The notes under the pieces were generated by a model. The model was not told the DNA's origin, did not search any database, and saw nothing but the letters and a program-made list of their open reading frames with translations. A stretch of 41,614 nt of DNA from Planctomycetota bacterium (GTDB lineage Bacteria; Planctomycetota; UBA1135), in assembly GCA_003696625.1 (NCBI GenBank), contig RFGR01000180.1, positions 1 to 41,614 on the forward strand, read 5' to 3'. Both the position numbers and the translations under genes were made by a program. Of this stretch, positions 26,596 to 31,038 are shown one piece after another. How positions within the stretch are numbered: the first letter of the stretch is position 1; each line of letters opens with the position of its first letter.

Positions 26596-27222
26596 GTGGC
26601 TCCTCCGACCTTCCGCCTCTGTTTCCTGCTGAGCCGCGATCTCTGCGCCGGGCGCGATCCGCTGCTCGTTCTCGAGGCGGCGGTCCGGGGAGGCGTCGAC
26701 TGCGTCCAGATGCGCGAGAAAGAGTTGGACGGCCCCGAACTCCACGCCTGGGGGCTCCGCCTGCGCCGGGCCTGCCGACGCCTCGGGGTGCCGCTGATCG
26801 TGAACGACCGGCTCGAGCTGGCCCTGGCCCTGGAGGCCGAGGGCGTCCACCTCGGCCAGGACGACCTCCATCCCGCCGACGCCCGCAGGCTGGCCGGTGA
26901 CCGGCTCTGGATCGGCTGGAGCACCCACGACCTCGAGCAGCTCGACGAGGCCGCCGAGGTCGGGGCCGACTACGCCGGCTTCGGACCGGTCTTTGCCACC
27001 CCGACCAAGGGATACGAGACCGGTCTGGGCCCGGAAGCCGTGGCCGCCGCCCTGGCGATCGCCCGCCTGCCGGTGGTGGCGATCGGTGGCATCCGGCCGG
27101 AGAACGCCTGGATGATCCCCGACCAGGCGGCGGTGGCGGTCTCGAGCGGGATCGGTCTGGCGGCGGATCCGGAGGCGGCCGCCCGGGGGATCCGGGCCGC
27201 CCGGAATCCAGAAAGGCTGTAG
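26596..27222 (+). CDS. thiE: Thiamine-phosphate synthase
   Basis: The 208-residue TIM-barrel enzyme joins hydroxymethylpyrimidine diphosphate and the thiazole phosphate to give thiamine phosphate. Family motifs are VQMREKELDG, VPLIVNDRLELAL, GVHLGQDDL, IGWSTHDLEQ, ADYAGFGPVFATPTK and PVVAIGGI. The GTG start at 26596 gives a normal N-terminus (VAPPTFRLCFLLSRDL) and follows a TAAGCT box by 6 nt. A small deviation is IGWSTH for IGVSTH. Some family members are TenI regulators, but the intact substrate motifs favour a real synthase. Confidence 0.93.
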   Translation: MAPPTFRLCFLLSRDLCAGRDPLLVLEAAVRGGVDCVQMREKELDGPELHAWGLRLRRACRRLGVPLIVNDRLELALALEAEGVHLGQDDLHPADARRLAGDRLWIGWSTHDLEQLDEAAEVGADYAGFGPVFATPTKGYETGLGPEAVAAALAIARLPVVAIGGIRPENAWMIPDQAAVAVSSGIGLAADPEAAARGIRAARNPERL

Positions 27223-27233: not shown

Positions 27234-29795
27234 ATGGCCCTCTCCCGGCGCGACTTTCTCTCTCGTTCGGCCGCGGCGGCCGCCGCGGCACCGGCCCTGG
27301 GCGCCCGGCCGCCCGCCGGCTCGCCGGCCGGCCCGACCGACCGGATCGGCCCCGAACCCGCCCCGCTGCGGCTGCGGGTGAACGGGGTCGAGCACGAGGT
27401 CGAGGCCGAGAGCCGGACGACCCTGCTCGAGGTGCTGCGTTGGCAGCTCGGCCTGACCGGCAGCAAGGAGGTCTGCGACCGCGGCACCTGTGGAGCCTGC
27501 ACGGTGCTGATCGACGGCCGGCCGGCCCTGGCCTGCATGACGCTCGCGGTGGATGCCGCCGGAGCCGAGATCACCACGGTCGAGGGGCTCGGCTCCCCGG
27601 AGTCCCCCGGCCGGGTCCAGGCCGCCTTCATCGCCAACGACGCCCTCCAGTGCGGCTTCTGCACGCCGGGCTTCGTGGTCGCCACCGAGGCGGCGCTCCG
27701 GTGCAATCCCCGGGCCGGGGTCGAGGAGCTGCAGCGGGCGGTGGCCGGCAACCAATGCCGCTGCGGCAGCCTGGCCCGGATTCGCGACGCCCACCGGGTC
27801 TTGAGCGGCGGCGAACCGGCGCCGGTGCCGCCCGGGAACCGCGCCGCCTGTCTGGAGCCCGACCGGCCGCGGGTGGACGCGCCGGAGAAGGTCTGCGGCG
27901 CCGCCCGCTACTCGGCCGACCGCGCCCGTCCGGGCATGCTCTTCGCCCGCCATGTGCTCTGTCCCTTCGGCCGCGCCCGGCTGGTCTCGGCCGACCTCGA
28001 CGCCGCCCGCCGCCTGCCCGGTGTGGTGGAGGTCGAACTCGGGGTCGGGGAGTGGTTCGAGTACAGCGGCGCCCCGGCCGGCCACGTCTGCGCCGAGTCG
28101 CCGGCGGCGCTGCGCGACGCGATCGCCGCCCTCCGCATCGACTGGGAGTTCGAACCGGTCGAGACCGACTGGCTCGCCCTCCACCGCCAACAGCACGGGC
28201 CGTTCCCGCCGCGCGAAGAGGACCTCGCCTCCTTCCGCGGCGCCGACCGGGCGGCCGCGGCGCTGGCCCGGGCCGAGGTCGTGGTCGAGGCGGTCTATCG
28301 CACCCAGGTCCAGGTTCACACCCCGCTCGAGCCGCACGGGGCGATGGTCGATCCGACCGAACAGCCGGTGAAGTGCTGGGTGACCACCCAGGGCACCTTC
28401 ACCTGCGTCGAGGCGATGCAGCGCGGCCTCGAACTTGATCCGGAAGACTTCGAAGTCCGCTGCGACCACGTCGGCGGCGGCTTCGGCAGCAAGTTCGGCG
28501 CCGGCCGCGAGGGACTGCTAGCGGCGCAGCTCGCCCACCGGCACGGACGGCCGGTGCGGGTCTTCAACGACCGCGAAAACGAGATGCTCGACACCGGCAA
28601 CCGGCCCGGCTCGCTCCAGTGGTACCGGGTCGGCGCGACTCGGGAGGGCAAACTGCTCGGCGGCTTCGTCCGCACCGTCGGCATCACCGGGATCGGCGGC
28701 GGCGGCGGCGTGACCACCCCGTTCCTCTACGACTTCGGCGCCCTGGCCCGTTCGCACGACGACCTGCGCACTCCGCACGGCGCGCCGCGGCCGTTCCGGG
28801 CCCCCGGCCGGCCGCAGGGGGTGTTCGGCATCGAGGTGCTGATGGACGAGCTGGCCGAACGGCTCGGCCTCGACCCGGTCGAGGTCCGACGCCGCAACGA
28901 GACCAGCGAGGTCCGACGCCGGATGCTGGCCGAGGGCGCCCGCTTGATCGGCTGGGACCGACGGCGGCCGAGCGGCAGCCAGCGCGGTCGGCTGCGCCGC
29001 GGGCTGGGCTGCGCCGGCGGCGACTGGGGCAACGGCAAGGGCCGCTGCGAGGTCCGGCTGACCGCGAAACCGGACGGCACGATCCACATCTTCAGCGGCA
29101 TGCAGGACATCGGCACCGGCGAGCGGACCGTGCTGATCGACCTGGCGGCGGCGGCGCTGGAGCTGCCGCGCGAACGCTTCGTCCTGCACCTGGCCAGTTC
29201 GAAGTACCCCTACGGCCCGGCCAGCGGCGGCTCGACCACCGCCCGCCTGACGGCGCCGGCGGTCCGCGACGCCTGCGCCAAGCTGAAACCGCACTTGCCG
29301 GCGCGGGAGGAAGTGACGGTCGAGGGCTCCTTCAACGACGACTACTGGGGCCGCGGCGGCTCCGAGGCCGTGCAGTTCGTCGACCTGGTGGTCGACGCCG
29401 AGACCGGGGTGGTCCGGATCGAGAAGATCGTCGCCCTGCAGGCCTGCGGCCAGACCGTGAACCGAAAAACGGCCGAGAACCAGATCCACGGCGGGGTCAT
29501 CCAGGGCATCGGCTACGCTCTGTTCGAAGACCGGGTCACCGACCCGCAGCTCGGCTTCATGGTGAACGCCGGACTGGAGCGCTACCTCTTCCCCGGCCCG
29601 CTCGACGTGCCGGAGATCGTGCCGGTGCTCTGGGCCGAAAGCGACGGCCTGGGCGTCCGCTCCCTCGGCGAGCCCTGCACCGTGCCCACCGCCGGCGCCA
29701 TCGCCAACGCGGTGGCCAACGCGATCGGTGCGCCGATCCGCGAGCTTCCGATCACCCCGGAGCGGGTCCTGGCGGCGCTGGAGGGACGGGCATGA
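27234..29795 (+). CDS. Fused Tat-exported aldehyde/xanthine oxidoreductase: 2Fe-2S subunit + Mo subunit
   Basis: The 853-residue protein starts with a Tat signal ([19 protein letters not shown]). Residues 45-195 hold the two [2Fe-2S] centres: C81, C86, C89, C101 and C140, C143, C175, C177. From about 210 the molybdopterin-cytosine-type large subunit follows, with GGGFGSKFG and, near the end, the catalytic glutamate E813 in SLGEPCTVPTAGAIANAVANAIG. In E. coli PaoABC these are separate proteins PaoA and PaoC; here they are joined in one chain. The cofactor-loaded complex is exported folded, so it should oxidise aldehydes or heterocycles in the periplasm. Substrate unknown. The next gene supplies the FAD subunit. 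Confidence 0.9.
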   Translation: MALSRRDFLSRSAAAAAAAPALGARPPAGSPAGPTDRIGPEPAPLRLRVNGVEHEVEAESRTTLLEVLRWQLGLTGSKEVCDRGTCGACTVLIDGRPALACMTLAVDAAGAEITTVEGLGSPESPGRVQAAFIANDALQCGFCTPGFVVATEAALRCNPRAGVEELQRAVAGNQCRCGSLARIRDAHRVLSGGEPAPVPPGNRAACLEPDRPRVDAPEKVCGAARYSADRARPGMLFARHVLCPFGRARLVSADLDAARRLPGVVEVELGVGEWFEYSGAPAGHVCAESPAALRDAIAALRIDWEFEPVETDWLALHRQQHGPFPPREEDLASFRGADRAAAALARAEVVVEAVYRTQVQVHTPLEPHGAMVDPTEQPVKCWVTTQGTFTCVEAMQRGLELDPEDFEVRCDHVGGGFGSKFGAGREGLLAAQLAHRHGRPVRVFNDRENEMLDTGNRPGSLQWYRVGATREGKLLGGFVRTVGITGIGGGGGVTTPFLYDFGALARSHDDLRTPHGAPRPFRAPGRPQGVFGIEVLMDELAERLGLDPVEVRRRNETSEVRRRMLAEGARLIGWDRRRPSGSQRGRLRRGLGCAGGDWGNGKGRCEVRLTAKPDGTIHIFSGMQDIGTGERTVLIDLAAAALELPRERFVLHLASSKYPYGPASGGSTTARLTAPAVRDACAKLKPHLPAREEVTVEGSFNDDYWGRGGSEAVQFVDLVVDAETGVVRIEKIVALQACGQTVNRKTAENQIHGGVIQGIGYALFEDRVTDPQLGFMVNAGLERYLFPGPLDVPEIVPVLWAESDGLGVRSLGEPCTVPTAGAIANAVANAIGAPIRELPITPERVLAALEGRA

Positions 29796-30778
29796 GGCGC
29801 TTCAGCTACCACGTCGCGGCCGACGCGGTCGAAGCGGCCCGGCTCGGCGCCGAGGGCTCGGCCCTACGCAAGGCCGGCGGCACCGACCTGCTCGACCGCA
29901 TGAAGGAAGGCCTGGAACGGCCGGCGACCGTGGTCGGGATGCACCGGGCGCTGCCGACCGGCCTGCGCCGGGAGGGCGAGTGGCTGTGGATCGGAGCCGG
30001 CACCACCCTGGCCGAGTTGGGCCGCAGCGCCGAGCTGCGCCGACTGCTGCCGAGCCTGGCCGAAAGCGCCGGCGAGGCGGCCACTCCGGCCATTCGGGAG
30101 GCCGCCACCCTCGGCGGCAACCTGTTCCAGCGGCCGCGCTGCTGGTACTTCCGCAGCCGCCACTACCTGTGCCGCAAGAAGGGCGGCGCCGTCTGCTGGG
30201 CCCAGGAGGGCCGGCACGAGCACCACGCCCTGTTCGACAACGACCACTGCGCGGTGGTGCACCCCGCGAACGCCGCGCCGGCCCTGATCGCCGCCGGCGC
30301 GGTCCTGCACCTGGTCGGCGGCGACGGCCGCCGGCGCCAACTGCCGCTGGCCGAGGCCTACACCCCGGCCGGAGACGATCCCGAGGTCGAGCACCGGCTG
30401 GCCGCGGACGAGATCGTGGTCGAGGTGGCGGTGCCGGCGGCCGCCCTCGGCCCGCGCAGCGCCCACGTCGAGATCCGACACAAACAGAGCTTCGACTGGC
30501 CGCTGGCGATGGCGGCCGCCAACCTGAACGGCAGACCGGGGCTGGTCCTCGGAGCGGTGGCCTCGACCCCGCGGCCGGTGCCGCTGCCGGAGCCGCCGCC
30601 GGCCGACGAGCCCGGCTTGCGGGAATGGGCCGCCGCCGCCGCCCGACGGGCGGTGGCCGACGCCACCCCGCTCCCGGGCAACGCCTGGCGGCTGCGGCCG
30701 GCGCGGGCGGCGGCCGAACGGGCGCTGCTCCGCGCCGCCGGTCTGGCGGTCGATCCCGGCCGGAAGGAGGAACGATGA
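29792..30778 (+). CDS. FAD-binding subunit with [4Fe-4S] cluster, PaoB/YagS-like
   Basis: The 328-residue protein is the medium subunit of a molybdenum hydroxylase, passing electrons from the 2Fe-2S centres to an acceptor. FAD motifs are RKAGGTDLLDRMK (26-38) and ATLGGNLFQRPRC (105-117). Four cysteines in an inserted loop, C117, C127, C135 and C153, match the spacing type of the PaoB [4Fe-4S] cluster, which xanthine dehydrogenases lack. It has no signal peptide and would be carried out with the Tat-signalled subunit. The ATG overlaps the previous stop (ATGA), so the subunits are made together. Confidence 0.9.
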   Translation: MRRFSYHVAADAVEAARLGAEGSALRKAGGTDLLDRMKEGLERPATVVGMHRALPTGLRREGEWLWIGAGTTLAELGRSAELRRLLPSLAESAGEAATPAIREAATLGGNLFQRPRCWYFRSRHYLCRKKGGAVCWAQEGRHEHHALFDNDHCAVVHPANAAPALIAAGAVLHLVGGDGRRRQLPLAEAYTPAGDDPEVEHRLAADEIVVEVAVPAAALGPRSAHVEIRHKQSFDWPLAMAAANLNGRPGLVLGAVASTPRPVPLPEPPPADEPGLREWAAAAARRAVADATPLPGNAWRLRPARAAAERALLRAAGLAVDPGRKEER

Positions 30779-31038
30779 GCCGCGAACGCGACACCCCCGC
30801 CGGTGCCCCGCCGCGCCGCTACCTGCCGGCCTGCGCCGAGCTGCGGGCGAAGACGATGTACTACCACCCCGAGGATCAGGCGCAGCCGCCGGGGATGGTC
30901 GTGGACAGCGACGTCAACGGCTACTGGTGCGCCCGGACGATGGACGCGATCGGTCCCGATCGGTCCGGCTGCGGCCCGAACGCCTGCCAGGCCGGTCGCG
31001 CCTGCTTCACCCCGCCGCCGGCAAGGAACCCGTCCTGA
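30775..31038 (+). CDS. Small cysteine-rich protein coupled to the molybdenum hydroxylase
   Basis: The 87-residue protein has five cysteines, C20, C52, C66, C71 and C77, in a conserved-looking C-terminal half (VNGYWCARTMDAIGPDRSGC then GPNACQAGRACF). It has no signal peptide or membrane segment. The start is very well supported: ATG overlaps the FAD-subunit stop (ATGA) and AGGAGG stands 5 nt upstream. Spacing suggests metal or iron-sulfur binding, perhaps an electron-transfer partner or maturation factor, but I recognise no family. Its last 32 nt overlap the convergent hydrolase gene. Confidence 0.75.
   Translation: MSRERDTPAGAPPRRYLPACAELRAKTMYYHPEDQAQPPGMVVDSDVNGYWCARTMDAIGPDRSGCGPNACQAGRACFTPPPARNPS

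Follow-up and report, generated by a model that had tools for sequence, protein, structure and literature searches.

This locus carries a small gene that belongs to an uncharacterised, strongly conserved accessory family, which we regard as its main finding. The gene encodes a protein with four invariant cysteines, directly follows the genes of an exported molybdo-flavoenzyme, accompanies this subgroup of the enzyme across more than ten phyla, and is co-inherited with it; the family lies outside the coverage of Pfam and NCBIfam. As an oxidoreductase the enzyme itself is an ordinary member of the PaoABC-like type, and the fusion of its iron-sulfur (FeS) and molybdenum (Mo) parts is specific to its lineage. 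For the small protein we propose, at a probability of roughly one half, that it is a metal-centre component that hitchhikes with the exported complex and acts at the flavoprotein end, in either electron exit or stabilisation.

Locus organization and identity of the enzyme

The window, i.e. the whole stretch of 41,614 nucleotides that was analysed, comes from a 3.0 Mb genome that is 90.5% complete. It contains three same-strand genes with an ATGA overlap at both junctions, which are translationally coupled (Table 1). The first product opens with a twin-arginine signal (motif SRRDFLS), followed by Fer2 and Fer2_2 domains with eight cluster cysteines and by matches to MoCoBD_1 and MoCoBD_2, while Ald_Xan_dh_C was matched partially and below its cut-off. 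In phmmer alignments with PDB sequences, residues 2-186 pair with PaoA and residues 205-848 with PaoC, placing an LGEP motif opposite GVGE in the catalytic-glutamate region of the latter. The twin-arginine motif, the domain matches and these alignments bear out the first-pass annotation, made from the sequence of the window, which had read this Tat-signalled chain as a merger of PaoA-type and PaoC-type subunits. The second product is an FAD_binding_5 protein whose nearest PDB matches are 5y6q_B and PaoB, and it keeps all four [4Fe-4S] cysteines in alignment with both; it is, as had been claimed, a flavoprotein of the 4Fe-4S type.

Table 1. Features of the locus and of related loci; positions are those of the window unless prefixed by a locus.
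Feature	Position	Strand	Basis
ThiE-like gene	26596-27222	+	sequence, by eye only
Fused FeS/Mo chain, PaoA-like and PaoC-like, 853 aa	27234-29795	+	Fer2/Fer2_2, MoCoBD_1/2; PaoA and PaoC alignments
Tat signal region, MALSRRDFLS then Ala-rich stretch (end approximate)	27234-27302	+	sequence; RR motif recurs in relatives
2x[2Fe-2S] domains, residues 48-187	27375-27794	+	domain matches; Cys 81, 86, 89, 101, 140, 143, 175, 177
Molybdenum cofactor part, residues 207-853	27852-29792	+	domain matches and PaoC alignment
FAD subunit, PaoB-like, 328 aa	29792-30778	+	FAD_binding_5; PDB alignments
[4Fe-4S] loop of FAD subunit, Cys 117/127/135/153	30140-30250	+	alignment with PaoB and 5y6q_B
Shine-Dalgarno AAGGAGG of small gene	30764-30770	+	sequence
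Small four-cysteine protein gene, 87 aa; invariant C20, C52, C71, C77, R75	30775-31038	+	conserved sequence and position beside enzyme
Nitroreductase-family genes	L142:4508-5164, L084:5998-6651		PF00881; signal-like N-terminus in both
PaoB-like flavoproteins with one [4Fe-4S] Cys	L042, L045, L046, L050, L051, L056, L057, L060, L098, L122, L139, L147		

Thus far the locus shares with the PaoABC type a Tat-signalled FeS part with two [2Fe-2S] sites, PaoC-like Mo domains and a four-cysteine FAD subunit; it departs from that type in lacking three separate subunits together with a PaoD/XdhC gene within the operon. Because the FeS and Mo parts are fused and XdhC is encoded on another contig, we file it as a PaoABC variant. 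Judged by these sequence features, its product is an exported molybdo-flavoenzyme of the PaoABC type that is probably an aldehyde oxidoreductase. The fused chain scores 270 bits against the PaoC equivalog model (cut-off 1180) and 288 bits against the MOP-type model NF045668 (cut-off 1100). An identity as a MOP-type aldehyde oxidoreductase was rejected, given the latter score and the FAD gene overlapping the fused gene.

The fusion, earlier taken as a defining feature, proved to be an incidental lineage detail, as relatives nearly always have separate FeS and Mo genes. It is present in one of the 37 loci of the phylum that were fetched with the small gene (L032, from the window's own family) and, in the set of named organisms, in L070, a Planctomycetota MAG that is the window's nearest named relative, as well as in L076 and L085. 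The flavoprotein tree groups the window with L032 and L070 in a single clade with full support, and three changes are required to account for the trait, which puts the number of fusion events at about three, one of them in the clade to which the window belongs. Being rare and recurrent, with a single FeS-Mo chain known also in MOP-type enzymes, it was set aside as the key novelty.

The small gene begins four nucleotides after its Shine-Dalgarno sequence, an AAGGAGG that has no second perfect copy in the window at the right distance from an evident gene start, and overlaps the FAD gene by ATGA, in agreement with the earlier statement that the coupled third gene has the strongest ribosome binding site in the window. 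Its GC content by codon position (0.67/0.63/0.92), together with its conservation across phyla, shows it to be a real gene. Upstream of the operon, a ThiE-like (thiamine phosphate synthase) gene on the same strand ends about 12 nucleotides before the start of the fused chain, and the molybdoenzyme may, from this arrangement, share a transcript with it.

Distribution and linkage of the small gene

A search for the small protein gave matches in 81 of 294 Planctomycetota genomes. In all 29 fetched relatives the gene for the Mo chain precedes the FAD gene and this in turn the small gene, all on the same strand, and the 37 longer loci have in common a set of Tat-FeS, Mo, FAD and small genes, with an RR motif before the FeS domain in 36 and a contig-cut sequence in the 37th. 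The linkage was examined in both directions by running one profile search for the flavoprotein and another for the small protein over these 294 genomes. The small gene lies downstream of 82 of the 92 subgroup flavoprotein genes, at a median distance of 21 nt and a maximum of 811 nt, and contig ends truncate two of the remaining ten. Conversely, a subgroup flavoprotein lies upstream of 82 of the 84 small-gene matches, or 83 if a contig-cut case (G236) is counted, the remaining match (G197) being weak and partial. The assignment of the small cysteine gene to the enzyme, made earlier for the window, therefore holds in the phylum, where the gene is present rather than absent beside most flavoprotein genes of the subgroup.

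Its wider spread was scanned with the flavoprotein alignment as query in one genome per species, and the best 80 loci were kept. In 62 of these the FAD gene is immediately followed by the small gene, the two being no more than 30 nt apart in 47 cases; 15 loci are without the small gene and three end too early for a call. As deposited, the labels of the best 80 loci comprise Planctomycetota, Acidobacteriota, Myxococcota, Calditrichota, Sumerlaeota, Poribacteria, Binatota, Latescibacterota, Melainabacteria and Bacteroidota, among others. The named loci without the small gene include most of those from Pseudomonadota and Armatimonadota. One locus labelled Proteobacteria does carry it (L140, JAFMMO010000162.1), but its contig equals in length G177:C223, from the phylum of the window, and a zero-length branch joins the two, so that the bin probably belongs to a planctomycete and bears a wrong label. 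It is highly improbable that the small gene is unrelated to the enzyme and simply co-transcribed with it: its absence in some lineages is all that favours such a reading, which is contradicted by synteny, as the same neighbour recurs in more than ten phyla and the gene is almost never found elsewhere.

A plasmid search for the small protein gave no match, and no other operon-wide partner recurs around the enzyme, the clusters found being lineage-local. In several PaoABC-like operons of Pseudomonadota that are without the small gene (L142, L084, L081 and L133), a nitroreductase-family gene (PF00881) directly follows the FAD gene and might represent an alternative redox partner. The source genome and others of the phylum also have a second xanthine-oxidase-family operon (L159, at G000:C93:13-990, and L160, L161 and L163), whose flavoprotein is 4-hydroxybenzoyl-CoA-reductase-like with a different Cys-rich insertion, and which has no small gene.

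The first-pass annotation had further held that an XdhC/PaoD-type chaperone is absent, so that a role in maturation or electron transfer could fall to the small protein. The former is true of the window but not of the genome, in which a complete XdhC (PF02625 and PF13478) is encoded on another contig (C170) with no molybdoenzyme adjoining. In the phylum XdhC is present in 79 of the 82 genomes with the small gene and, at the same rate, in 107 of the 109 that have the flavoprotein family without it; Pfam finds neither an XdhC_CoxI nor an XdhC_C domain in the small protein. Since XdhC is present both in the source genome and in 79 of the 82 small-gene genomes, the small protein is no substitute for it, and chaperone replacement was dropped as the main idea. 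A stand-alone XdhC serving several molybdoenzymes has been proposed before (PMC2997495).

The four-cysteine family and its proposed role

Across 97 sequences of the family the four cysteines C20, C52, C71 and C77 and Arg75 (window numbering) are invariant, and Lys26 (96/97), Gly60 (96/97) and Thr55 (93/97) nearly so, giving the pattern C-x2-L-x2-K, W-C-x2-T-x4-G-P-D, C and R-x-C; a further cysteine of the window's protein, C66, lies outside the conserved set. The spacing C-x31-C-x18-C-x5-C is unlike that of known ferredoxins. Inspection by eye showed no signal peptide in family members, searches of 90 members against Pfam and NCBIfam gave nothing convincing or beyond chance, and the family profile found nothing among PDB sequences. 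A Foldseek comparison of the AlphaFold2 model with PDB folds likewise gave no match, the power of this comparison being low for so small a protein. With nothing significant in Pfam, NCBIfam or PDB sequences and folds, ferredoxin, HiPIP, rubredoxin and other named families were rejected as identities, and we found no description of a small four-cysteine fourth gene in the open-access literature. The model has a mean pLDDT of 84, rising to 90-95 over the Cys-bearing residues 41-80, which have little secondary structure; such a confidently modelled yet structure-poor segment would be expected around a metal site. A second model, of a distant family member, is weak (pLDDT 67).

In enzymes of this family electrons are passed from the Mo site over two [2Fe-2S] clusters to FAD, and electrons from substrate oxidation would take the same path here. 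The four invariant cysteines are predicted to be the ligands of a single metal centre, with an Fe-S cluster as the likeliest kind. Lacking a signal of its own, the small protein would join the complex while still in the cytoplasm and leave on the Tat signal of the FeS chain, in the manner of PaoB and PaoC, which are signal-less and are exported together with PaoA (PMC4273604). It would dock at the flavoprotein side and there either pass electrons from the FAD/[4Fe-4S] end to an outside acceptor or stabilise that end; for PaoABC the terminal electron acceptor is stated as unidentified (PMC3958847). Metal binding, location, partner and role of the small protein are all inferred in this proposal, and the existence of lineages in which the enzyme occurs unaccompanied by the small gene speaks against it.

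The main rival is a dedicated cytoplasmic assembly factor that works beside XdhC and stays outside the exported enzyme, e.g. in inserting [4Fe-4S] or FAD or in proofreading before Tat export. The lack of a signal peptide, the place as last gene of the operon like paoD, the strong Shine-Dalgarno sequence and the four conserved cysteines all suit such a factor, but we consider it somewhat unlikely, as its Moco step is already covered by XdhC in 79 of the 82 small-gene genomes and PaoABC-like operons of Pseudomonadota and others manage without the small protein. The flavoproteins provide a further argument. Of 102 flavoproteins accompanied by the small gene, 43 have lost between one and three of their four [4Fe-4S] cysteines, and 12 of them retain just one (Table 1), so few ligands that their cluster has almost certainly been lost; the small protein nevertheless keeps all four of its own cysteines there. 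Because it is kept in lineages without the flavoprotein cluster cysteines, it is not simply a [4Fe-4S] insertion factor.

All four cysteines are kept, on the other hand, in 24 of the 25 flavoproteins without the small gene in the tree set, the exception being a three-cysteine flavoprotein (L153). In raw counts this pattern is in line with a role of the small protein, be it redox or structural, that is in part redundant. Because the tree holds about ten cysteine changes and six small-gene changes, and an independent-pairs test is not significant (4 pairs, p ~1), we treat the correlation as a lead only. A more specific version of the exported component we hold to be unlikely. In it the small protein, as a new type of Fe-S protein, would act as fourth subunit, relaying electrons from the flavoprotein to the external acceptor and rendering the [4Fe-4S] cluster of the flavoprotein dispensable; if true, this would account for the near restriction of cluster decay to small-protein lineages. 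Still more doubtful is a reading in which the cysteines bind zinc or form disulfides and the protein is a peripheral subunit whose role in the exported complex is structural alone and not redox. The small size, the few secondary-structure elements, the unusual cysteine spacing and the retention of the protein whatever the state of the flavoprotein cluster would be in keeping with this, whereas the conservation of the Thr, the Gly-Pro-Asp and the Arg suggests more than a structural knot, although none of it is decisive.

Comparison with known systems

The single polypeptide with FeS domains preceding Mo domains recalls the MOP-type aldehyde oxidoreductases of Desulfovibrio (1sij, 1dgj; NF045668), which differ in having 907-aa chains and are not known to have a flavoprotein subunit. 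The aldehyde oxidase of Methylobacillus (5y6q) provides, with its medium subunit, the best PDB match of the flavoprotein (E 1e-39), but is built of separate small, medium and large subunits and has no small four-cysteine protein among its listed chains. PaoD/XdhC chaperones (PF02625, PF13478) resemble the small protein in that PaoD is likewise the operon's last gene and has no signal peptide, whereas the small protein has 87 aa against about 280 and is without an XdhC domain. The locus shares with PaoABC of E. coli, a periplasmic aldehyde oxidoreductase (5g5g, 5g5h), a Tat-signalled FeS part, a PaoC-like Mo part and a PaoB-like flavoprotein with four [4Fe-4S] cysteines; the E. coli operon carries paoD at the position of the small gene (PMC3909100), whereas here the FeS and Mo parts form one chain, XdhC stands alone elsewhere in the genome, and a small four-cysteine gene takes the place of paoD.
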